64,000 bases of DNA from Natronolimnohabitans innermongolicus JCM 12255 (lineage in GTDB: Archaea > Halobacteriota > Halobacteria > Halobacteriales > Natrialbaceae): positions 62,265 to 126,264 of the forward strand of contig NZ_AOHZ01000081.1 in assembly GCF_000337215.1 (NCBI RefSeq). Reading direction: 5' to 3'. Every line of letters begins with the position of its first letter. Position 1 is the first letter of the stretch. A program made the translations under genes and the position numbers. Below are positions 1 through 17,566 of this stretch, piece after piece. Under the pieces are notes generated by a model, which was not told where the DNA came from, did no database searches, and was given only the letters and a program-made list of their open reading frames with translations.

Positions 1-582
1 GGGCATCGACGGACGCAGTCCGAGTACCCAGAGACCGATTGTGGCCGTCACGAGGTAGCCGATCGCATATCCCCACAGCATGCCGGAGAGTCCGAGGCCG
101 AACAGAGCGACCAGCCCGATCTGAGCGACGGCTCGCGTACCCTGTCTGCCCGTCGAGAGGATCGCGTAGACGTGGACAAGGTGATTCCCTTTCAGCGACG
201 CGTTGATAAGTGACTTGTACAGTGTCACGAATAGCAGCAAGACGACGAACTCGGCGACGGGAACGCCGACGTAGGCGTTGACCTGCTCGCGAAAGACGAT
301 CACGGCAACAGCGACGATCGTCATCATCGCCCCCATGACGACCAGGCCGGCCCCCGTGAACTCTTCTGGCTCTTCACCCTCGCTGATCCGTTTGGTGATT
401 GCTCGGTTGATTCCTACTTTGCCACCGATTCCGAGCCAGGTGACCACCGCTAGTACCAGTGCATACTGGCCGAGTACGTCCTCACCAAGGACACGCGCAA
501 AGTACACCGTCGCGAGGAACCCAAGAACTGATCCGAGGACCTTCGAGACGAGGTAGACGGCGGAGGTCTGTCCGAGGCGCAT
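1..582 (-). CDS. Polysaccharide/oligosaccharide flippase (Wzx/RfbX type), N-terminal part, cut by window edge
   Basis: Reading leftwards from the ATG at 582-580, the frame stays open for 194 codons to the window edge. The product is almost entirely hydrophobic with regularly spaced membrane segments. It begins MRLGQTSAVYLVSKVLGSVL, the usual opening of MATE/MVF-superfamily flippases that move lipid-linked sugars across the membrane. A GINRAITKRISEGEEPEEF loop after the second helix also fits. About five helices are visible; family members have 12-14 helices and 450-500 residues, so more than half lies outside the window. Its place beside glycosyltransferases and aglB suggests export of lipid-linked surface glycan; this is inference. 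No start nearer the N-terminus is available. Confidence 0.85.
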   Translation of the reverse strand, partial: MRLGQTSAVYLVSKVLGSVLGFLATVYFARVLGEDVLGQYALVLAVVTWLGIGGKVGINRAITKRISEGEEPEEFTGAGLVVMGAMMTIVAVAVIVFREQVNAYVGVPVAEFVVLLLFVTLYKSLINASLKGNHLVHVYAILSTGRQGTRAVAQIGLVALFGLGLSGMLWGYAIGYLVTATIGLWVLGLRPSMP

Positions 583-8101: not shown

Positions 8102-8163
8102 AAACACCAACAGGAACCGTCGCAGTGAGCACACTAGTGACGGGTCATCACGTTGGTTCGAGT

Positions 8164-8631
8164 ATGACCAACGGTGACGCGTCGAGGATCACCGCCGAAC
8201 GGATTCGGACGACGGTCCGGAGCGTGCTCGCCGACCATCCCGTCTCGTTCGCGATGCTATTCGGCTCGAGCGCCCGCGGGACGATGGACGACCGAAGCGA
8301 CGTCGATCCCACGCTCGAGTTCGAAACGCATCGACCGGAGGACGACGGCTACAGCGAACTGTACCTGCGGGTGGGTTCCGAGCTCGAAGACGCGCTACCG
8401 ACCGACGTCGATGTTGTCGACGTCCACACGATGACGCCCCAGTTCGCGAGCGTCGCGTTCGACGAGGGCGACGTGGTCGTCGTCACCGACGGCGGCGGCG
8501 CCCTCCTCGTCGTGAGCGAGGACGTTCGCGCCGAACTCGAGCGGGACGTGGCAGGTGATCCGCCGTCGTTCGAGAACGTACGCAATCGCGTGGCAGCTGC
8601 TGCGAAACGGCTACGGAACGATCAACTCTAA
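8164..8631 (+). CDS. MNT-type minimal nucleotidyltransferase, no HEPN partner adjacent
   Basis: The 155-residue protein has the MNT signature GSSARGTMDDRSDVD (residues 34-48), with G34-S35 and the D46-x-D48 metal pair. MNT proteins of HEPN-MNT modules AMPylate and silence a HEPN RNase partner. No HEPN gene (Rx4-6H) is next to it; neighbours are a GT2 enzyme and a DUF433/DUF5615 pair on the other strand. It may be an orphan antitoxin or a relic. After the DxD, PTLEF replaces the more usual hydrophobic LLV. ATG at 8164 was chosen over GTG at 8125 because the extension has no family similarity. Confidence 0.75.
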   Translation: MTNGDASRITAERIRTTVRSVLADHPVSFAMLFGSSARGTMDDRSDVDPTLEFETHRPEDDGYSELYLRVGSELEDALPTDVDVVDVHTMTPQFASVAFDEGDVVVVTDGGGALLVVSEDVRAELERDVAGDPPSFENVRNRVAAAAKRLRNDQL

Positions 8632-8673: not shown

Positions 8674-9018
8674 TCACAACCACTCGGTGCTCACGCGCTC
8701 GAGTCCGTGGACCTGTGGTTGCGGGTAGTGGACGGACATTTCGTGAACGATATCGGCGACGTCGGCCGGCGGCATCGACAAGTCTGGAACGTAGAGAACG
8801 GCTCGATAGTCATCGTCGTCGAACTCGAGAACGAAATCGTCGTCGTACGTGAGAATCAATCGATCAGTGGAGTGAGAGTAGTCGGCGATTTGCGTATCAT
8901 CGACCCCTTTACCGAGTTCGGGAACGAAATCGACGTGTTCGACGTCGTGGCCGTAATTTTTGAGACGAAAGCCGATTTCCTGCTCGACGTTTTCGTCGAG
9001 TAGCAACCGGTAGGCCAT
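8674..9018 (-). CDS. DUF5615 PIN-like toxin
   Basis: A 114-residue PIN-fold-like protein: LLLDENVEQEIGFRLKNYGHDVEHV gives the first acidic residues (D8, E9), and STDRLILTYDDDFV the second Asp cluster. These are hallmarks of DUF5615 proteins, presumed VapC-like RNases. It begins one base after the stop of the DUF433 gene (9020-9313), the classic antitoxin-toxin order and spacing. The N-terminal acids and the TxDxDF-like motif are intact, so it looks functional. Cellular target unknown. Confidence 0.85.
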   Translation of the reverse strand: MAYRLLLDENVEQEIGFRLKNYGHDVEHVDFVPELGKGVDDTQIADYSHSTDRLILTYDDDFVLEFDDDDYRAVLYVPDLSMPPADVADIVHEMSVHYPQPQVHGLERVSTEWL

Positions 9019-9019
9019 C

Positions 9020-9313
9020 TTATGCGTCGTTCGGCGGTGTCATCGAGGAGCGTTCACTTGCGACCGCGTTCGCGCGCTCGTGTCGCTGTTCGGCCGCACG
9101 CATTTCTTCGGGATTGGAATGGTAGTACGCGAGGGCCTCGTACACGTCAGCGATGTCGAGATTGAAACGATCGGCAATCGTTTCCGGACGGAGATCTCGT
9201 TCGTCGACGTGGGCGTGAATTTCTCTGACGGTGAGTCGACTCTCGGGGAGATGCGGCTCGTCGTGAATATCGGAGTCGGTCCCGGAGACGATTCGATACT
9301 GCGTAGTCGCCAT
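9020..9313 (-). CDS. DUF433 antitoxin
   Basis: A 97-residue protein with the DUF433 helix-turn-helix: SRLTVREIHAHVDERDLRPE, then TIADRFNLDIADVYEALAYY, which is the diagnostic A-D-x-[FY]-x-L-x4-V-x-x-A-L-x-Y-Y pattern. DUF433 proteins are the antitoxin and DNA-binding half of DUF433/DUF5615 modules and usually autoregulate. The C-terminal tail (EEMRAAEQRHERANAV) would wrap the toxin. The toxin gene follows after one base. Confidence 0.85.
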   Translation of the reverse strand: MATTQYRIVSGTDSDIHDEPHLPESRLTVREIHAHVDERDLRPETIADRFNLDIADVYEALAYYHSNPEEMRAAEQRHERANAVASERSSMTPPNDA

Positions 9314-9380: not shown

Positions 9381-10340
9381 CTATGCGTCGATCGAATCGC
9401 CGTGATCAGTCGTCAACGTAGACCGATCCACGTCGGCCAGCCCGTACAGATACCCGAACCCGACCGCCGCCGTAAACACGAAGATCGTCACCAGCTGCTT
9501 CGCCTTCGCCGACGAGGGCTCCCGAATCAACTTCCCGATCCGGTCGGGAACGAACTCGAGTAGTAACTGCCCTAAATACTCGTTCTTATCCCCGGAGGCC
9601 TCGGGCAGCAGGAGATCCATGATCCGCTTCGAGTAGCCCTGCCAGAACGACCGAAACACCAGCCAGCGAAAGTCGCCGCGATAGTCGAACAGCTTGTGGT
9701 TGACCACCGCGTCCGTATTGTACACCACGCCCTTCCCGTACGCATTCGCCATCCGGATACACACCGGGGCCTCGTGAGCCTGGATGTGGCGGTCGCCGTG
9801 GCGACCCGTGTTCTCGTCGTAGCCGCCGACGTTCAAAAACACGTCCCGGCGATACGAGATGTTCGACCCGTACGTGTTCCGCAGTTCCTCCATGTGCTCG
9901 CCCATGCCGCGCTCGTCACACCCCACCAGCCAGTAGAACTCCTCGGGGAAGAAGTCGGGCTTCTCGGTCACCCAGTCCGGTTTCGCATGTCCCCCAACAG
10001 CAATCGCGTCGGTCTCCGAATACACTCGAGCCAGCTCCGCCACCCAGTCCGGCTCGGCCACCGCGTCGTCGTCGATGAACGCCACGACCTCACCAGAAGC
10101 GATCCTGGCCCCTCGAGTCCGGCTGTACGAAATCCCCTGATTCTCGTCGTTACAGTGGAGGACGACGTCCTCGAGGCCCCCGTAATCGTCCCGAACTCGC
10201 TCGAAGACGTCCTCGTTTCCGTCGACGACGATAACGACCTCGAGCGGTTCGTACGTTTGATCGAGAACGCTGTCGACGCACTCGGAGAACACGTCGTAGC
10301 GCTCCATCGCGTAGGTGCAGATGACGACGGAGACCTTCAT
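9381..10340 (-). CDS. Glycosyltransferase family 2 next to aglB (AglG-like)
   Basis: A 319-residue GT2: MKVSVVICTYAMERYDVFSE at the N-terminus, VIVVDGNEDV, and AFIDDDAVAEPDW carrying the DxD (about residue 93). Near residues 275-320 is a membrane segment (QLVTIFVFTAAVGFGYLYGL), so the enzyme is membrane-anchored. In Haloferax volcanii the GT2 enzyme AglG, which adds a hexuronic acid to dolichol-phosphate-linked glycan, is encoded beside aglB; divergent pairing with aglB here supports a similar place in N-glycan assembly, but the sugar is inferred only by analogy. ATG at 10340 follows a TATA-like box at 10365-10373; an upstream start at 10418 would overlap the promoter. Confidence 0.8.
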   Translation of the reverse strand: MKVSVVICTYAMERYDVFSECVDSVLDQTYEPLEVVIVVDGNEDVFERVRDDYGGLEDVVLHCNDENQGISYSRTRGARIASGEVVAFIDDDAVAEPDWVAELARVYSETDAIAVGGHAKPDWVTEKPDFFPEEFYWLVGCDERGMGEHMEELRNTYGSNISYRRDVFLNVGGYDENTGRHGDRHIQAHEAPVCIRMANAYGKGVVYNTDAVVNHKLFDYRGDFRWLVFRSFWQGYSKRIMDLLLPEASGDKNEYLGQLLLEFVPDRIGKLIREPSSAKAKQLVTIFVFTAAVGFGYLYGLADVDRSTLTTDHGDSIDA

Positions 10341-10364
10341 CGGCTCTCGATTGCTGTGAGCGGT

Positions 10365-10373
10365 GAATAAGCC
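10365..10373 (-). promoter_or_regulatory. TATA-like box of the AglG-like gene
   Basis: GGCTTATTC on the minus strand, about 25-30 bp before the ATG at 10340. The same nine bases occur in aglB's promoter at 10492-10500 on the opposite strand. Confidence 0.55.
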
Positions 10374-10491
10374 TTTTCCTTCGGTCGATCGCGGCCCACC
10401 GCGTCCACCGTCCGTCATCCAAGAGAACCGAAATTCAGGCGTATATGACGGTTACGGCCCGGCATATCAAAAACGGGGCCGTAGATGGCAA

Positions 10492-10524: not shown

Positions 10525-13500
10525 ATGAGTACGGATACCGAACGCCTCGAGGGGGGGACTGAGACGTCGTCCTCGTTCCTCGAGACGTTGGCCGACTGGT
10601 ATCACGTCCCCGTCATCGGGGCCGTGATGCTGTTTATGATCTGGGTGCGAACCCAGGCGTACGATCGATTCGTCACCGACGGTGGCACGCCGGCGCTCGG
10701 CGGCGTCGACTCGTGGTACCACTGGCGAACCGTCGAGTGGACCGCGGAGAACTACCCGAGCACGATGCCCTACGAGATCTGGACCGGGTTTCCGACCGGC
10801 AGGTACGTCGGGCAGTTCGGGACCCTGTTCGACCAGATAATCGTCACCGTCGCGATGATCGTCGGGCTCGGCGATCCCTCCACCGAGACCCTCTACACCG
10901 TCGCCCTGCTCTCCGTCCCCGTGATGGCGGCGCTGGTCGCCATCCCGGTGTTCTACATCGGGCGCCGACTCGGCGGCACGATCGGCGGGCTCGTCTCGGT
11001 CGTCGTCCTCGCGCTCGCGCCCGGGACGTTCCTCTACCGCACCACCGTCGGCCAGCTCCAACACCACGTCGCCGAGGTGCTGTTCATGGCGATCTCGATC
11101 CTCGCGATGATGGTCGCCCTGCGCGTGGCCGAACGCGAGAAACCCGTTTACGAACTCCTGCTGGACAAAGACTGGGACGCCCTCCGAAAGCCGGCCGGCT
11201 TCAGCCTTCTCGCCGGCATCGCCCTGGCCCTCTACCTCTGGGTCTGGCCGCCGGGCGTCGTCCTCATCGGGATCTTCGCGATCTTCTTCACCGTCCAGCT
11301 CTGTCTCGACTACGTTCGGGGCACCTCGCCCGACCACGTCGCGATGGTCGGCGCGATCAGCATGGCCGTGCCGGCGCTCTTTATGCTCCTCATGATGGAG
11401 GAACCGAGCACGAGCGTCACCAGCTTCGGGCTGCTCCAGCCCGCGGCCGCCGCCCTCGTTGGCGCCGGCTGTCTGTTCATGGCCTGGTTCGCCCGCCAGT
11501 GGGACGGCTACGACCTCGAGCGACGCTACTATCCGGGTGCGATCGCCGGCCTCATCGGGGTTACGTTCCTCGCGATGTGGGTCGTCGTCCCCGACCTGTT
11601 CTCGACGATCGTGAGCAACGCGACGCGACGGGTCGTTCCGTTCGGCCAGACCGCGACCGACCTCACGATCTCCGAGGCCCAGCCGCCGGGCAACTTCACG
11701 GAACACGTCCAGGACGAGTTCGGGATGGCCTTCTACACGATGCTCGCGGGCCTCGCGCTCCTGCTCGCTCGCCCCTTCCTGGGACGCGAGTTCCGCGCCG
11801 AGCACACCCTGATCGTCGTCTGGTCGCTGTTCCTGATCAGCATGGCCGCGACGCAGGTTCGCTTCGCTTACTACCTCGTGCTCGCGGTCGCGGTCGTCAA
11901 CGCCGTCTTCGTGGCGGACGTCGTCCGCATCTTCAACCTCGACATCCAGAGCAGAGCGAACTCGCTGCGGAGCATCGAGACCTACCAGGTGATCGTCCTC
12001 ATCATGGTCGTCATGCTCCTGTTCGTGCCGCTGCTCCCGCCGATGGCCGCCGACGAGACGGCCTGGGACCGCGGCGAGGCGGTCGGCCCGCACGGCGAGG
12101 CCATGGTCTGGGAGGAGTCCAACCACTGGCTCGCCGAGAACACCCCCGAGCCGGGTAACTGGGGCGAACACGAGAACGCCCACAAGCTGGACTACTTCGG
12201 CAACTACGACTACCCCGACGACGGCGACTACGAGTACCCCGACGGAACCTACGGCGTGATGTCGTGGTGGGACTACGGCCACCTGATAACCACCCAGGCC
12301 GAACGGATCCCGCACTCGAACCCGTTCCAGCAGAACGCACAGTCCTCCTCGGCGTTCCTCACCGCCGAATCCGAGGAGCGCGGCGAACTGGTCCTCGACG
12401 CCATTGCCGCGGGCGAGTCGCCCGACGACGAGTCGCTCGAGGAACTCGAGGCGATGGCCGCAGACGCCGGCAACGAGGAGCTGCGCTACGTGATGATCGA
12501 CAGCTCGATGGCCGGCGGGAAGTTCAACGCGATCACGCAGTGGTCCGGGCCGGACTACGGCCACTACATGACGCCGCCGGATCAGAACCCAGACCAGCAC
12601 ATCGCCATCGATGACCTCGCCGCGGACTTCGACGAGGCGCCGTACCACGACACGATGCTCGCCCAGCTCTACAGCGACGACGCGGCGGGCATGGAACACT
12701 ACCGTCTCGTCCACGAAACCGAGGAGGCTGCGCCCGCGCTTCTCGCGACCTACGCGCAGGTGTACACCGACGGCCTGTTCCCACCGGACTCCGAGGAGTA
12801 CGAGGACGCCCAGGAAGCGGGCTACACCGAGGGTGACGTGCTCCACCTCGACGGCGGCGACATCGTCGCACCGGACGAGGGCGACCCGGCGATCATCACC
12901 CAGCAGCTACCCCAGCAGGAGCTCATGCAGCTCCAGCAGTCGCCGAACGTGGAACTCCTCGACGCCCAGATCAGCGCCGCGGTCAAGACCTACGAACGCG
13001 TCGACGGCGCCACGATCACCGGCCAGGTCGAGGACGAGGACGACCTGCTCAACGAGAGCGCGACGGTCACCGTCGACGTCGAACTCGAGGCCAACACCGA
13101 GCGCGCGCTCACCTACGAGCAGGAGGTCGAACTCGCCGAGGACGGCACCTTCGAAGTGACCGTGCCGTACGCGACCGACGACGACCTCGGCGTCGAGGAC
13201 GGCTACACGAACAGCGCCGTCGAGGCGACCGACCTGTACAACGTCTCCGTCGGCGAGTTCGGCGAGGAGGGCTACCAGGCCCAGATCGAGGTGACCGAAG
13301 AGGACGTCGTCACGGGCGGCGACGTCACCGTCGACGCCGACGCGTTCGAACAGGTCGAACTCGAGGAGCCCGCCGAGGACGAAGAACTCGACGAGGACCT
13401 CGAGGACGAGATCGACGAAGGCGAGGACGGTAACGAGACCGATACCGGCGACGGCAACGAGACCGACGCCGGCGACGGTAACGAAACCGACGACGAGACG

Positions 13501-13605
13501 GACGCCGAGAACGGCGACGACGACACCGAGGGCGCCGAGGAAGCCGACGAAGCCGACGAAGCCGACGAGGCTGACGACGCGGACGCCGACGACGGCGACG
13601 CGTAA
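10525..13605 (+). CDS. aglB: Dolichyl-phosphooligosaccharide-protein glycotransferase AglB
   Basis: A 1026-residue STT3-family oligosaccharyltransferase that moves the lipid-linked glycan onto Asn of N-X-S/T sequons outside the membrane. The N-terminal half has about 13 membrane helices with the first catalytic acidic motif in GGVDSWYHWRTVEW. The external part carries WWDYG at residues 581-585 and MIDSSMAGGKFNAITQW, corresponding to the DK/MI-type motif. After ~residue 830 follow beta-rich domains and then an extreme Asp/Glu/Thr tail (NETDTGDGNETDAGDGNE, then AEEADEADEADEADD) with no obvious membrane anchor. ATG at 10525 follows the TATA box at 10492-10500. It is divergent from an AglG-like enzyme and followed by a DUF368 protein. 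Confidence 0.95.
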   Translation: MSTDTERLEGGTETSSSFLETLADWYHVPVIGAVMLFMIWVRTQAYDRFVTDGGTPALGGVDSWYHWRTVEWTAENYPSTMPYEIWTGFPTGRYVGQFGTLFDQIIVTVAMIVGLGDPSTETLYTVALLSVPVMAALVAIPVFYIGRRLGGTIGGLVSVVVLALAPGTFLYRTTVGQLQHHVAEVLFMAISILAMMVALRVAEREKPVYELLLDKDWDALRKPAGFSLLAGIALALYLWVWPPGVVLIGIFAIFFTVQLCLDYVRGTSPDHVAMVGAISMAVPALFMLLMMEEPSTSVTSFGLLQPAAAALVGAGCLFMAWFARQWDGYDLERRYYPGAIAGLIGVTFLAMWVVVPDLFSTIVSNATRRVVPFGQTATDLTISEAQPPGNFTEHVQDEFGMAFYTMLAGLALLLARPFLGREFRAEHTLIVVWSLFLISMAATQVRFAYYLVLAVAVVNAVFVADVVRIFNLDIQSRANSLRSIETYQVIVLIMVVMLLFVPLLPPMAADETAWDRGEAVGPHGEAMVWEESNHWLAENTPEPGNWGEHENAHKLDYFGNYDYPDDGDYEYPDGTYGVMSWWDYGHLITTQAERIPHSNPFQQNAQSSSAFLTAESEERGELVLDAIAAGESPDDESLEELEAMAADAGNEELRYVMIDSSMAGGKFNAITQWSGPDYGHYMTPPDQNPDQHIAIDDLAADFDEAPYHDTMLAQLYSDDAAGMEHYRLVHETEEAAPALLATYAQVYTDGLFPPDSEEYEDAQEAGYTEGDVLHLDGGDIVAPDEGDPAIITQQLPQQELMQLQQSPNVELLDAQISAAVKTYERVDGATITGQVEDEDDLLNESATVTVDVELEANTERALTYEQEVELAEDGTFEVTVPYATDDDLGVEDGYTNSAVEATDLYNVSVGEFGEEGYQAQIEVTEEDVVTGGDVTVDADAFEQVELEEPAEDEELDEDLEDEIDEGEDGNETDTGDGNETDAGDGNETDDETDAENGDDDTEGAEEADEADEADEADDADADDGDA

Positions 13606-13883
13606 CCCTCACCAAGACCCGCCACCTCTCCTGTCTCGCGTCTTCTCCCCGCTTCTCTCGCTCGCTTCCCGATCGATTCTCCTCGAGTACCCGAATTCGA
13701 CTCGAGGCCCCACCCCAACCCACCGCACCCTGCCGACTCGAGCCCTCGAGTTCGCCCGCTCTGTTCCCGTTCACACCGAGTCCGATCGGCGCGCCCGCAC
13801 CCGATTCAGTTCCATCGCTGACGTGATGCAGCAGTCTACAAGAGTGGGAAGCCTTTTGCCGCCGTCCGGAATACTGGCGCGCA

Positions 13884-14810
13884 ATGCGGAAGCTTCTCTC
13901 CGTCTACCTGAAGGGGTTCTCGATGGGCGCAGCGGACGTCGTCCCCGGCGTTTCGGGCGCGACGATCGCGCTCATCGTCGGGATTTACGATCGAATGATC
14001 GCCGCGATCACGGCGATCGACCCGCGGCGGTTCCGATCGGCGCTGCGGGTCCACGAGCCCGAGGCCAGAGCGACGCTGCGAGACGAGTTCGAGTCGATGG
14101 ACCTCCCCTTCCTGATAACGCTCGGGTTGGGCGTGATGACGGCGATCGTCGTCCTCTCGCGGCTGATGCACGGCGCGGCGACGACGTACCCGGTGCCGAC
14201 CTACGGCTTCTTCTTCGGGTTGATCGCGGCGTCGGCGGTCGTCCTCTACGGCCAGATCGAGGCGTGGACGCCGGCCCGCGTGGGCGTCTCGCTGCTGGCG
14301 ATCGTCATCGCGTTCGTCATCACGGGCGCGACCGCGGGCGACGTCTCCCACGGCCCGCTGATCGTCTTCGTCGCGGGCGCGATCGCGATCTGTGCGATGG
14401 TGTTGCCGGGTGTCTCGGGCGCGTTCTTCCTGCTCGTGCTCGGGCAGTACGAGTACCTCACCGGCGTGCTGAGCGAGTTCGTCGACGGCGTCATCGGCCT
14501 CCTCAACGGGGCCGCCCTCGAGCCGGTGATCGAGGCCGGCGCGGTCGTCGGCATCTTCGGCGCGGGCGCGATCATCGGACTGTTCACGATGGCCCACGCG
14601 GTGGGCTACGCCCTGGATCGCTACCGGGCCGCGACGCTCGCCTTCCTGGTGAGTTTGATGGTCGGCGCGCTTCGTCTGCCGTACGTGGAGGTGACGACGA
14701 ACCTCGGCGAGACGGCCTACGGAACGACGAGCGCGGCCGTCGTCGCCGGCCTCGTCGGCGCCGGCGCGGTGTTGCTCGTCAACTGGTACACGGACGACCT
14801 CGAGTACTGA
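13884..14810 (+). CDS. DUF368 membrane protein, candidate polyprenyl-phosphate transporter (PopT family)
   Basis: A 308-residue protein with about eight to nine hydrophobic helices. Two diagnostic repeats occur: GAADVVPGVSGATIAL (about residues 15-30) and AICAMVLPGVSGAFFLLVLG (about 171-190). These paired PGVSG[AG] re-entrant motifs define DUF368, whose bacterial members were shown in 2022-23 to recycle undecaprenyl phosphate across the membrane (PopT). Here it follows aglB, whose reaction releases dolichyl (pyro)phosphate on the outer face. A recycling role for dolichyl phosphate is therefore attractive, but inferred. A T-rich TATA-like GCCTTTTG near 13851 would give a nearly leaderless mRNA. 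Confidence 0.85.
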   Translation: MRKLLSVYLKGFSMGAADVVPGVSGATIALIVGIYDRMIAAITAIDPRRFRSALRVHEPEARATLRDEFESMDLPFLITLGLGVMTAIVVLSRLMHGAATTYPVPTYGFFFGLIAASAVVLYGQIEAWTPARVGVSLLAIVIAFVITGATAGDVSHGPLIVFVAGAIAICAMVLPGVSGAFFLLVLGQYEYLTGVLSEFVDGVIGLLNGAALEPVIEAGAVVGIFGAGAIIGLFTMAHAVGYALDRYRAATLAFLVSLMVGALRLPYVEVTTNLGETAYGTTSAAVVAGLVGAGAVLLVNWYTDDLEY

Positions 14811-14981: not shown

Positions 14982-16172
14982 TCAGGCGGACCCGTTCGAA
15001 TCCGTGCCGTCACCCTCGGTCACGGCCGGCCCGAGCGCACGGAACGCGATCGAGGGAAACGCCGGGACGACGCCGCTCGGACGGCGCCCGCTCCCGGTCG
15101 CCGGCAGCGGCACGCGGTCGATGATGCCCTGATCGGCGAGTTCGTAGAGAAACCGTTTGACCGTCCCCGTCGTCAGCGAGGAGCGATCGGCGATGATGGC
15201 CGCGATCTCGCGAATCGGTCGGTCGGCGGCGTCGATGGCCACGAGGTCGCGAAGCACGCGCTGGCGCGTTTCCGGCAGCGCGAGCACGCGGTCGAGGTGG
15301 ACGCCGTCGTCGGGCACGTCGGCCTTCGCGGCCTCGAGGTGGTCCGGAGCGATCCGATCGGCGCCGGCGTCGCTCGCGAGGACGGCGGCGCCGAACAGCG
15401 CAGCGAGCGCGTCGTGGGCGTCGCCGTCGGCCCACAGCGCTACCTCCCGAATCGACTCGTGGTCGATCGCGCCCGCGGCGAGCCCGGTCGACGTGCGGTC
15501 GGTGATGACGTCGACGAGTTCGTGGTGGCGGTAGGCCGGCACGGGGACGGTCGGATCGCCCTCGATCCAGCGCTCGGGGACGCGTGTCCCGACCGCGACC
15601 GTCGAGACGCTGTCGGCGACGGGATCGAGGAGTTCGAGCGCGCGCTCGTACTCGAGCGTGTCGGGCTCGTCGTGGTGGTCGACGGCGACGACCGCGCGGT
15701 GGTCCGGGCGCAGCAAGCGGTTACAGAGTCGCTCGCGGAGCGCGTCGGTGCCGACGCCGCTCTCGGGGATCGGCTCCGGACTCAACACGGAGAGGACGGC
15801 CCGGTAGAACGCGAAGGCGCTCTCGACGCGGCGGCCGTCGACGTAGACGAACCAGGTCACGGGTTCGGTGCTGCCGGCGCGGGTCGTCGTGCCGATCGAA
15901 CGCGTCGACTCGCCCAGCCGCTCGTTCAGCGCGTCGAACAGCGCGGTGACGACCGCCGACGTGCCGGCTCCCGAGGGGCCGACGACCGCGACCGGCGGCG
16001 GTAACTCGCCGTCGAAGACTGGCTCTAAGACGTCCAGTAACTGCTCGAGGACGGGGCCGCGGCCGATCGGCTCTGCGCGGTGGACGATCGGGCTCAGGTG
16101 GTCGCGGTCGACGAGAATCTCGCCGTGTTGGCGGGCCGACCGTCGCCGCGCGATTCGCTCCTCTAGGTCCAT
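14982..16172 (-). CDS. Orc1/Cdc6-like AAA+ protein with degenerate Walker A
   Basis: A 396-residue protein with the Orc1/Cdc6 layout: a leader ending DRDHLSPIVHRAEPIGRGPVLEQL, an AAA+ core and a C-terminal winged helix (RQRVLRDLVAIDAADRPIRE, then GTVKRFLYELADQGII). The Walker A region reads GPSGAGTSA (residues 65-73), with Thr where Lys is expected. The Walker B region reads VVAVDHHDEPD. Loss of the Lys argues against normal ATP hydrolysis, so replication initiation is unlikely; a DNA-binding regulator is plausible. The ATG at 16172 lies 5 nt after glpC's stop, so it is probably co-transcribed with glpABC. Confidence 0.7.
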   Translation of the reverse strand: MDLEERIARRRSARQHGEILVDRDHLSPIVHRAEPIGRGPVLEQLLDVLEPVFDGELPPPVAVVGPSGAGTSAVVTALFDALNERLGESTRSIGTTTRAGSTEPVTWFVYVDGRRVESAFAFYRAVLSVLSPEPIPESGVGTDALRERLCNRLLRPDHRAVVAVDHHDEPDTLEYERALELLDPVADSVSTVAVGTRVPERWIEGDPTVPVPAYRHHELVDVITDRTSTGLAAGAIDHESIREVALWADGDAHDALAALFGAAVLASDAGADRIAPDHLEAAKADVPDDGVHLDRVLALPETRQRVLRDLVAIDAADRPIREIAAIIADRSSLTTGTVKRFLYELADQGIIDRVPLPATGSGRRPSGVVPAFPSIAFRALGPAVTEGDGTDSNGSA

Positions 16173-16177
16173 CTCCC

Positions 16178-17566
16178 TTACTTGGCCTCCCGGCGCCCGC
16201 CGTCGACCGCGTCTGCGTCTCCGTCGCCGGTCCCACTCCCAGCTGTACCGAGTTCCGTCCCGAGCAGCGCCGCCTCGAGCACCTCGAGCGTGTGCGTGAT
16301 TTCGTAGCCGGTGCCGTGGCCCATCTGCATCGAGCAGGTCGGACACTCCGTCAGTCCGGTTTCCGCGGGGGCGTCTTCCATGTGTTCGAACATCTCCTCG
16401 CCGATTTTCATGGACGTCTCGTAGTTCTCCGCCTTCCAGCCGTAGGTGCCGGAGATCCCCGAACAGGAGTCGCCGACGTCGTGGGCGTCGATGCCGTCGA
16501 TCGCGCTGAGCACGTCTATCGTCTGTCCATCGAGTCCCTGGTTACGTGAATGACACGGTGCGTGATAGGCGAACGACTGCCCGTCGAGGCTGGTCCCCTC
16601 GAGTTCGCCCTCGAGGTCCTCGTGGACTCGCAGATACTCGACGGCGTCCCAGGTGTTCGCGGCCACGTCCTCGGTGTGTTCGAAGTCGAACAGTTCGGGG
16701 TACTCCTGGCGAATCGACATCGAACAGGAGCTACAGGAGGCGATGATATCGGCGCCGTCCTCGAGGGCGGCGGCGAGTTCCTCGACGTTGGTCTCGGCGG
16801 CCCGGCGGGCGTCATCGAGCATCCCGTTGGCGAACATCGGCGTGCCCGAACAGGACTGCTCGGGGACCATGACCTCGTAGCCGAAGTGCTCGTAGACGCG
16901 CACGAGGGCCTTCGCGACCTCGGGCGTGTTGTAGTTGGCGTAGCAGCCGTGGAAGTAGGCGATCCGCTTCTCGTCGCTCTCGACCTGCGCGCCGCCTCGC
17001 TTCGTCCACCACTCGCGGAACGTCTCCGTCGCGAACTCCGGGAACTCCCGCTCGCTCGTGATCCCCATGACCTTCTCGCCGAGCCACTTCGTGATCGAGA
17101 GCCCGGTCACGAAGTTCGCCGTCCGGGGGAACGTCGCGGCCAGCGGCGCGAGCCGGCGGTAGTTCGCGAGCATGCGGTTGCGCCAGTACTCCCGGGAGAG
17201 CTTGCTCATGTTCTCTTCGACGTACTCCGCCCGGGCCGTGTTGTGCATCTGCGAGAGAGGAACTTCGGAGGGGCAGGCGCTGTCACAGCGCATGCAGTTC
17301 GAACACTTCATCACGGAGTCGTCGATGTCGTGGTCGTCCTGGCGCTTGAGACGCCACTGCTCGGGCCCCTGGAACTTCGGCCCGGGGAACTCGTCGTCGA
17401 CCGCCGCGACGGGACAGTTGGTGTCGCAGGTCGAGCACTTGTAACAGTTGTCCGCGCCCGGCCGGAGGTCCATCTCCTCGGCCTCGGGGAACACCTGAAT
17501 CGGTTCGAACTCGTCGTCTTTCGCGCCCGGTACGTGATCGTCGGTCGGTCGTTCCGCGTCGCTCAT
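16178..17566 (-). CDS. glpC: Anaerobic-type glycerol-3-phosphate dehydrogenase subunit C
   Basis: A 462-residue iron-sulfur subunit. Two ferredoxin-type clusters are evident, CYKCSTCDTNCP (~residues 41-52) and CSNCMRCDSACP (~87-98). Two CCG-type Cys-rich domains follow, with YFHGCYANYNTPEVAKALV, EQSCSGTPMFANG, CSSCSMSIRQEYP and CSGISGTYG. With GlpA and GlpB it passes electrons from glycerol-3-phosphate to menaquinone at the membrane. Haloarchaea use this bacterial-type GlpABC enzyme under aerobic conditions. ATG at 17566 is chosen over a GTG at 17599. About 130 bp separate it from glpB. Confidence 0.95.
   Translation of the reverse strand: MSDAERPTDDHVPGAKDDEFEPIQVFPEAEEMDLRPGADNCYKCSTCDTNCPVAAVDDEFPGPKFQGPEQWRLKRQDDHDIDDSVMKCSNCMRCDSACPSEVPLSQMHNTARAEYVEENMSKLSREYWRNRMLANYRRLAPLAATFPRTANFVTGLSITKWLGEKVMGITSEREFPEFATETFREWWTKRGGAQVESDEKRIAYFHGCYANYNTPEVAKALVRVYEHFGYEVMVPEQSCSGTPMFANGMLDDARRAAETNVEELAAALEDGADIIASCSSCSMSIRQEYPELFDFEHTEDVAANTWDAVEYLRVHEDLEGELEGTSLDGQSFAYHAPCHSRNQGLDGQTIDVLSAIDGIDAHDVGDSCSGISGTYGWKAENYETSMKIGEEMFEHMEDAPAETGLTECPTCSMQMGHGTGYEITHTLEVLEAALLGTELGTAGSGTGDGDADAVDGGRREAK

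Follow-up and report, generated by a model that had tools for sequence, protein, structure and literature searches.

The window analysed here is a stretch of 64,000 nucleotides from Natronolimnohabitans innermongolicus JCM 12255 (contig NZ_AOHZ01000081.1), and all coordinates are window positions unless another locus is named. It is haloarchaeal, with a G+C content of 64%. It carries aglB, the gene of the archaeal oligosaccharyltransferase, followed by a gene coding for a protein of the family DUF368, which is present in a single copy in this genome. The features of this region are listed in table 1. The protein AglB (1026 amino acids) scores 870 bits in a profile search with TIGR04154, for which the cut-off is 450, and is above the cut-off also for PF02516, PF22627 and PF18079; the STT3 domain, the AglB core domain and the WWDYG motif are all present. 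The genome (G000) belongs to a group all of whose members have an aglB of the archaeosortase-associated type. The gene starts with the ATG at 10525; an in-frame GTG upstream, at 10363, is also open, and the start observed in the family fits the ATG. The C-terminus of AglB has a long acidic repeat tail (EADEADEADE...), corresponding to low-complexity DNA at 13400-13600.

Table 1. The aglB-DUF368 region of N. innermongolicus JCM 12255 (window positions).
Feature	Position	Strand	Remarks
AglG-type glucosyl-dolichyl-phosphate glucuronosyltransferase, divergent from aglB	9381-10418	-	NF041394 530 bits, cut-off 440
aglB, archaeal oligosaccharyltransferase (archaeosortase-associated type)	10525-13605	+	TIGR04154, PF02516, PF22627, PF18079, WWDYG
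Catalytic WWDYG of AglB, residue 581	12265-12279	+	
Spacer between aglB and the DUF368 gene	13606-13883		278 bp; both genes on the same strand
DUF368 (PF04018) predicted polytopic membrane protein, proposed dolichyl-phosphate translocase	13884-14810	+	PF04018 221 bits
First PGVSGA motif, residue 21	13944-13961	+	break between model helices 2-19 and 25-32
Second PGVSGA motif, residue 175	14406-14423	+	break between model helices 158-173 and 179-185

The DUF368 protein has 308 amino acids. A preliminary description of this DNA had placed after aglB a DUF368 gene with both PGVSG[AG] repeats, and this is borne out: the match to PF04018 covers profile positions 1-235 of 246, at a score far above the gathering score of 26, and both motifs read PGVSGA. 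The protein contains a true internal repeat: its two halves align with each other in hhalign with a probability of 98% (E 5e-14), and each of these related halves has its own PG[VI]SG motif. In an alignment of 66 sequences, bacteria included, residues P21, G22, S24 and G25 of the first motif and G176, S178 and G179 of the second are invariant. The AlphaFold2 model is all-helical, with a mean predicted local distance difference test (pLDDT) score of 93, and each motif breaks a helix pair. This confident model and the hydrophobic character of its helices predict a polytopic membrane protein.

We searched 145 genomes of Halobacteria for aglB and DUF368 and compared their coordinates. The former is present in all 145 genomes and the latter in 144. 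A close link, defined as DUF368 within 3 kb of aglB, was found in 99 genomes representing nine of 10 families, and in all 99 close pairs DUF368 is downstream of aglB on the same strand. The preliminary description had asked whether the adjacency is conserved; it clearly is, in the same order and on the same strand, and is not confined to the window. Chance or a local accident is ruled out by this number of genomes. Among 47 fetched pairs, 23 have genes that overlap (stop/start) or are separated by a gap of at most 10 bp, an arrangement suggestive of translational coupling in the lineages concerned. According to a census of neighbours, aglB adjoins DUF368 in 31 of 38 linked loci and any other gene in at most 11.

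The surveyed genomes share ancestry and are not independent; the point is whether the link outlasts its surroundings. The gene glpA, from the next conserved block, was used as a control for synteny, and was counted as near aglB when under 16 kb away. This is the case in 50 of 144 genomes, against the 99 of 145 with linked DUF368, and the linkage exceeds background synteny and is not confined to this genome. There are 65 genomes in which the DUF368 link is kept and glpA is not near aglB, a count that includes one (G043) with 3.2 kb between aglB and DUF368. Plain regional synteny is ruled out by this control: the tie of DUF368 to aglB is conserved and outlasts ordinary synteny.

In a tree of 108 DUF368 proteins, the haloarchaeal sequences form a single clade. 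Because linked genes are distributed across the main branches of this clade and only about seven changes of linkage are required on the tree, the linkage is probably ancestral in Halobacteria. A separate clade of 31 sequences consists of unlinked paralogues (L031-L064, e.g. L050:5929-6888). The paralogue replaced the linked gene in many genomes, in part of the family to which the window belongs and in another family; several genomes hold DUF368 genes of both types, and a few genes of the linked type have simply moved elsewhere.

The same order, aglB then DUF368, is found in a second lineage. In a class of Thermoplasmata, DUF368 is present in 13 of 80 genomes, 10 of which have the genes aglB-AMMECR1-amidohydrolase-DUF368 in that order, on one strand and one contig (AMMECR1 was not called in one of the ten blocks). 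After DUF368 there is mostly an inositol-monophosphatase-like gene; several genomes also have the gene of geranylgeranylglyceryl-phosphate synthase there. In the loci L220-L227, L229 and L233, a ribose-phosphate pyrophosphokinase-like gene precedes aglB, and enolase-like or geranylgeranylglyceryl-phosphate synthase genes come after the inositol-monophosphatase-like gene. In a second, quicker tree, the Thermoplasmata DUF368 proteins group separately from those of haloarchaea, in a clade of their own, and the bacterial sequences make up one clade. Support from Thermoplasmata is weaker than that from Halobacteria, because the block also holds housekeeping genes.

By established chemistry, transfer of the glycan by AglB leaves dolichyl monophosphate at the outer face, from which it must return inside. 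Haloarchaeal N-glycans are assembled on this carrier (PMC4476749, PMC3871713), and the proteins Agl15, AglR and Agl29 have been assigned as outward flippases (PMC3871713, PMC11980604). DUF368 proteins of bacteria bring undecaprenyl phosphate back (PMC12826051, PMC12893004); a return of dolichyl phosphate therefore fits an archaeal gene of this family beside aglB. We think it likely that the DUF368 protein is a dolichyl-phosphate translocase that returns the carrier after AglB has acted. On the inside of the cell, the glycan would be assembled by AglG-type enzymes, with dolichyl monophosphate as its carrier; the charged carrier would be turned outward by a Wzx-type flippase, and AglB would hand the glycan to the protein. 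The dolichyl monophosphate left on the outer face would then be brought by the DUF368 protein to the inner leaflet, ready for another round, in the way that PopT handles undecaprenyl phosphate in bacteria. The outward step appears to be already occupied, because Wzx-type genes are found nearby (window 1-582; Haloferax mucosum, L119:3193-4656). We infer the substrate, the direction, the energy source and the dependence of AglB on the DUF368 protein.

For the recycling step that is missing from archaeal protein glycosylation, the DUF368 gene is the best candidate, and the interpretation as a recycler is well supported as a hypothesis. The papers on haloarchaeal pathways that were checked assign the return of the carrier to no protein, and in three of them (PMC3871713 and PMC11980604 included) words for recycling are absent. 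A bolder proposal, which we advance tentatively and with less than even confidence, is that aglB-linked DUF368 proteins constitute a dedicated archaeal branch of polyprenyl-phosphate transporters, specific for dolichyl phosphate and partners of AglB, and are the first identified step of carrier recycling for N-glycosylation in Archaea. The conserved link singles out one gene, mostly single-copy, in genetically tractable organisms, which makes the question directly testable. A positive answer would turn a general hint, that dolichol phosphate is perhaps moved by DUF368 proteins, into a defined position in the pathway.

The window protein shares with PopT/VCA0040 the Pfam family (above the cut-off), the two PG[VI]SG repeats and the invariant residues, its best NCBIfam model is that of the Vibrio-type polyprenyl-phosphate transporter, and it probably works like PopT. 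It differs in that the archaeal sequences fall outside the single bacterial clade, that the expected carrier is dolichyl and not undecaprenyl phosphate, and that the neighbouring gene is aglB. Its scores of 107 and 202 bits with the PopT equivalog models (NF052563 and NF052564) are below the cut-offs of 400, and the Haloferax volcanii control is likewise below the cut-off of NF052564; for this reason we file it as a DUF368 protein and not as PopT itself. The flippases of polyprenyl phosphate DedA/UptA (VTT domain) are proposed to carry out the same step and belong to a different family. The undecaprenyl-pyrophosphate phosphatase BacA/UppP acts in the same lipid cycle as that proposed for DUF368; its fold match to the DUF368 protein is not significant (rank 43, E 0.81, TM-score 0.16) and no pyrophosphatase would be needed first, because the haloarchaeal carriers are monophosphates.

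The core idea, an archaeal DUF368 protein moving dolichol phosphate, was already partly known. The H. volcanii protein HVO_RS12060 at least partly complements Vibrio cholerae lacking vca0040, and the same study reported conditional alkaline and sodium phenotypes, found DUF368 enriched in Halobacteria and halophiles, and raised the possibility that dolichol phosphate is a cargo (Sit et al. 2022, PMC9876793). Neither aglB nor glycosylation nor the S-layer is mentioned in the text of this study. What is new here is the genomic tie of DUF368 to N-glycosylation; the aglB-DUF368 context is undescribed in the literature searched, a search that did not cover the concurrent paper naming PopT. The aglB gene of H. 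volcanii is HVO_RS12050, and aglG, aglI and aglF are 12045, 12040 and 12035 in the same series (PMC5131992, PMC7749143), which places HVO_RS12060 two tags after aglB, by tag arithmetic and not by sequence. Like HVO_RS12060, as positioned by these tags, the window protein is a haloarchaeal DUF368 protein encoded downstream of aglB. In three genomes whose DUF368 is Haloferax-like, aglB and DUF368 are separated by a uridine diphosphate-sugar dehydrogenase gene on the opposite strand; in Haloferax mucosum the two are adjacent.

The preliminary description had read the protein as an archaeal carrier recycler. This reading is partly supported, by the conserved adjacency and by the preservation of the family's conserved positions; the idea is not entirely new (PMC9876793). 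Several observations weigh against it. The close link is absent from 46 of the 145 genomes, and a role broader than the AglB cycle is therefore possible. In 45 of these, DUF368 is found elsewhere, often as the distinct paralogue and mostly amid unrelated genes. The idea that these copies belong to another glycan locus is unsupported by such neighbours, the sole hint being a family-2 glycosyltransferase gene adjoining five of them. In favour of the reading, the 15 genomes that have lost the linked DUF368 with aglB and glpA still together all hold a copy elsewhere. Genome G021, a draft that is 98% complete, carries aglB, but its best DUF368 candidate scores no higher than 16 bits and was rejected, being a fragment with a stop. 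An AglG-like gene lies upstream of aglB in this genome (G021:C31, L211), which also has two VTT/DedA matches and is a natural test case for redundancy. VTT/DedA proteins, present in all 145 genomes in one to six copies, could do the same job.

To these are added observations from other Archaea and from the locus itself. Elsewhere in Halobacteriota, DUF368 has a patchy distribution (34 of the other sampled genomes) and does not lie beside the oligosaccharyltransferase gene; a methanogen link, seen in four genomes of one family with the genes 13-15 kb apart and housekeeping genes between them, was judged coincidental. The control genomes of Methanosarcina, Sulfolobus and Methanocaldococcus have the oligosaccharyltransferase, DUF368 was not found in them, and DUF368 is therefore not universally needed. 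No solved relative of the DUF368 protein was found by sequence or by fold (Foldseek best E 0.08), and no data on archaeal DUF368 mutants or activity were found in the literature searched. Co-transcription of aglB and DUF368 is not evident in the window genome, because the spacer, at the long end in a gap table of 47 pairs, exceeds that of most relatives.

Other explanations of the adjacency were considered. DUF368 could be a dolichyl-phosphate translocase of the whole cell, serving new carrier, dolichyl-phosphate mannose, exopolysaccharide and low-salt glycans as well as AglB, the proximity to aglB being due to co-regulation or history without any dedicated partnership. Of the several dolichyl-phosphate pathways of H. 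volcanii, one does not depend on AglB (PMC3871713), and DUF368 is kept in nearly all genomes even once away from aglB; however, the tight overlap with aglB, which recurs, and a second clade with the link, found in Thermoplasmata, indicate a closer tie, and we regard this explanation as rather unlikely. It is improbable that DUF368 has another membrane function, in adaptation to salt and pH or in translocation of another lipid, and is only hitchhiking with aglB. The conditional phenotypes and the enrichment in halophiles mentioned above would suit such a function, and there is no solved relative to reveal the substrate site, but the family's bacterial proteins work on undecaprenyl phosphate, a mutant lacking one of these is partly complemented by the H. 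volcanii protein (PMC9876793), and the synteny around the locus is lost sooner than the link to aglB.

Adjacency to aglB suits the step just before transfer equally well as the step just after it, and a protein predicted to be polytopic in the membrane might be the outward flippase of glycan-charged dolichyl phosphate. The presence of Wzx-type proteins in the same neighbourhoods, the assignment of Agl15, AglR and Agl29 to this step (PMC3871713, PMC11980604) and the action of the bacterial DUF368 family on the bare carrier (PMC12826051) make this very unlikely. It is hardly credible that dolichyl phosphate is mainly translocated by VTT/DedA proteins, with DUF368 as a redundant back-up. VTT/DedA proteins are ubiquitous in the surveyed genomes, and in Pseudomonas DedA is replaced by DUF368 and vice versa (PMC12893004); yet DUF368 is kept alongside them in all but one of the Halobacteria genomes, unlike the mutual exclusion in Pseudomonas, and the copy numbers of VTT proteins do not reveal which ones have polyprenyl phosphate as their substrate.

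Some other genes of the region deserve mention. Within the glycosylation region, a DUF5615 gene (PF18480, 48 bits) adjoins a DUF433 gene (PF04255, 25 bits) on the minus strand, at 8674-9313, in an arrangement like that of a small toxin-antitoxin pair; a gene for a Polbeta-type nucleotidyltransferase (8125-8631) adjoins this pair. An Orc1/Cdc6-like AAA protein is encoded on the minus strand at 14982-16346. Its score with TIGR02928, 71 bits, is far below the cut-off of 181, and it is perhaps an Orc1-derived regulator. Its gene is located between DUF368 and the glp genes both in the window and in Haloferax mucosum (L119:10949-12118).

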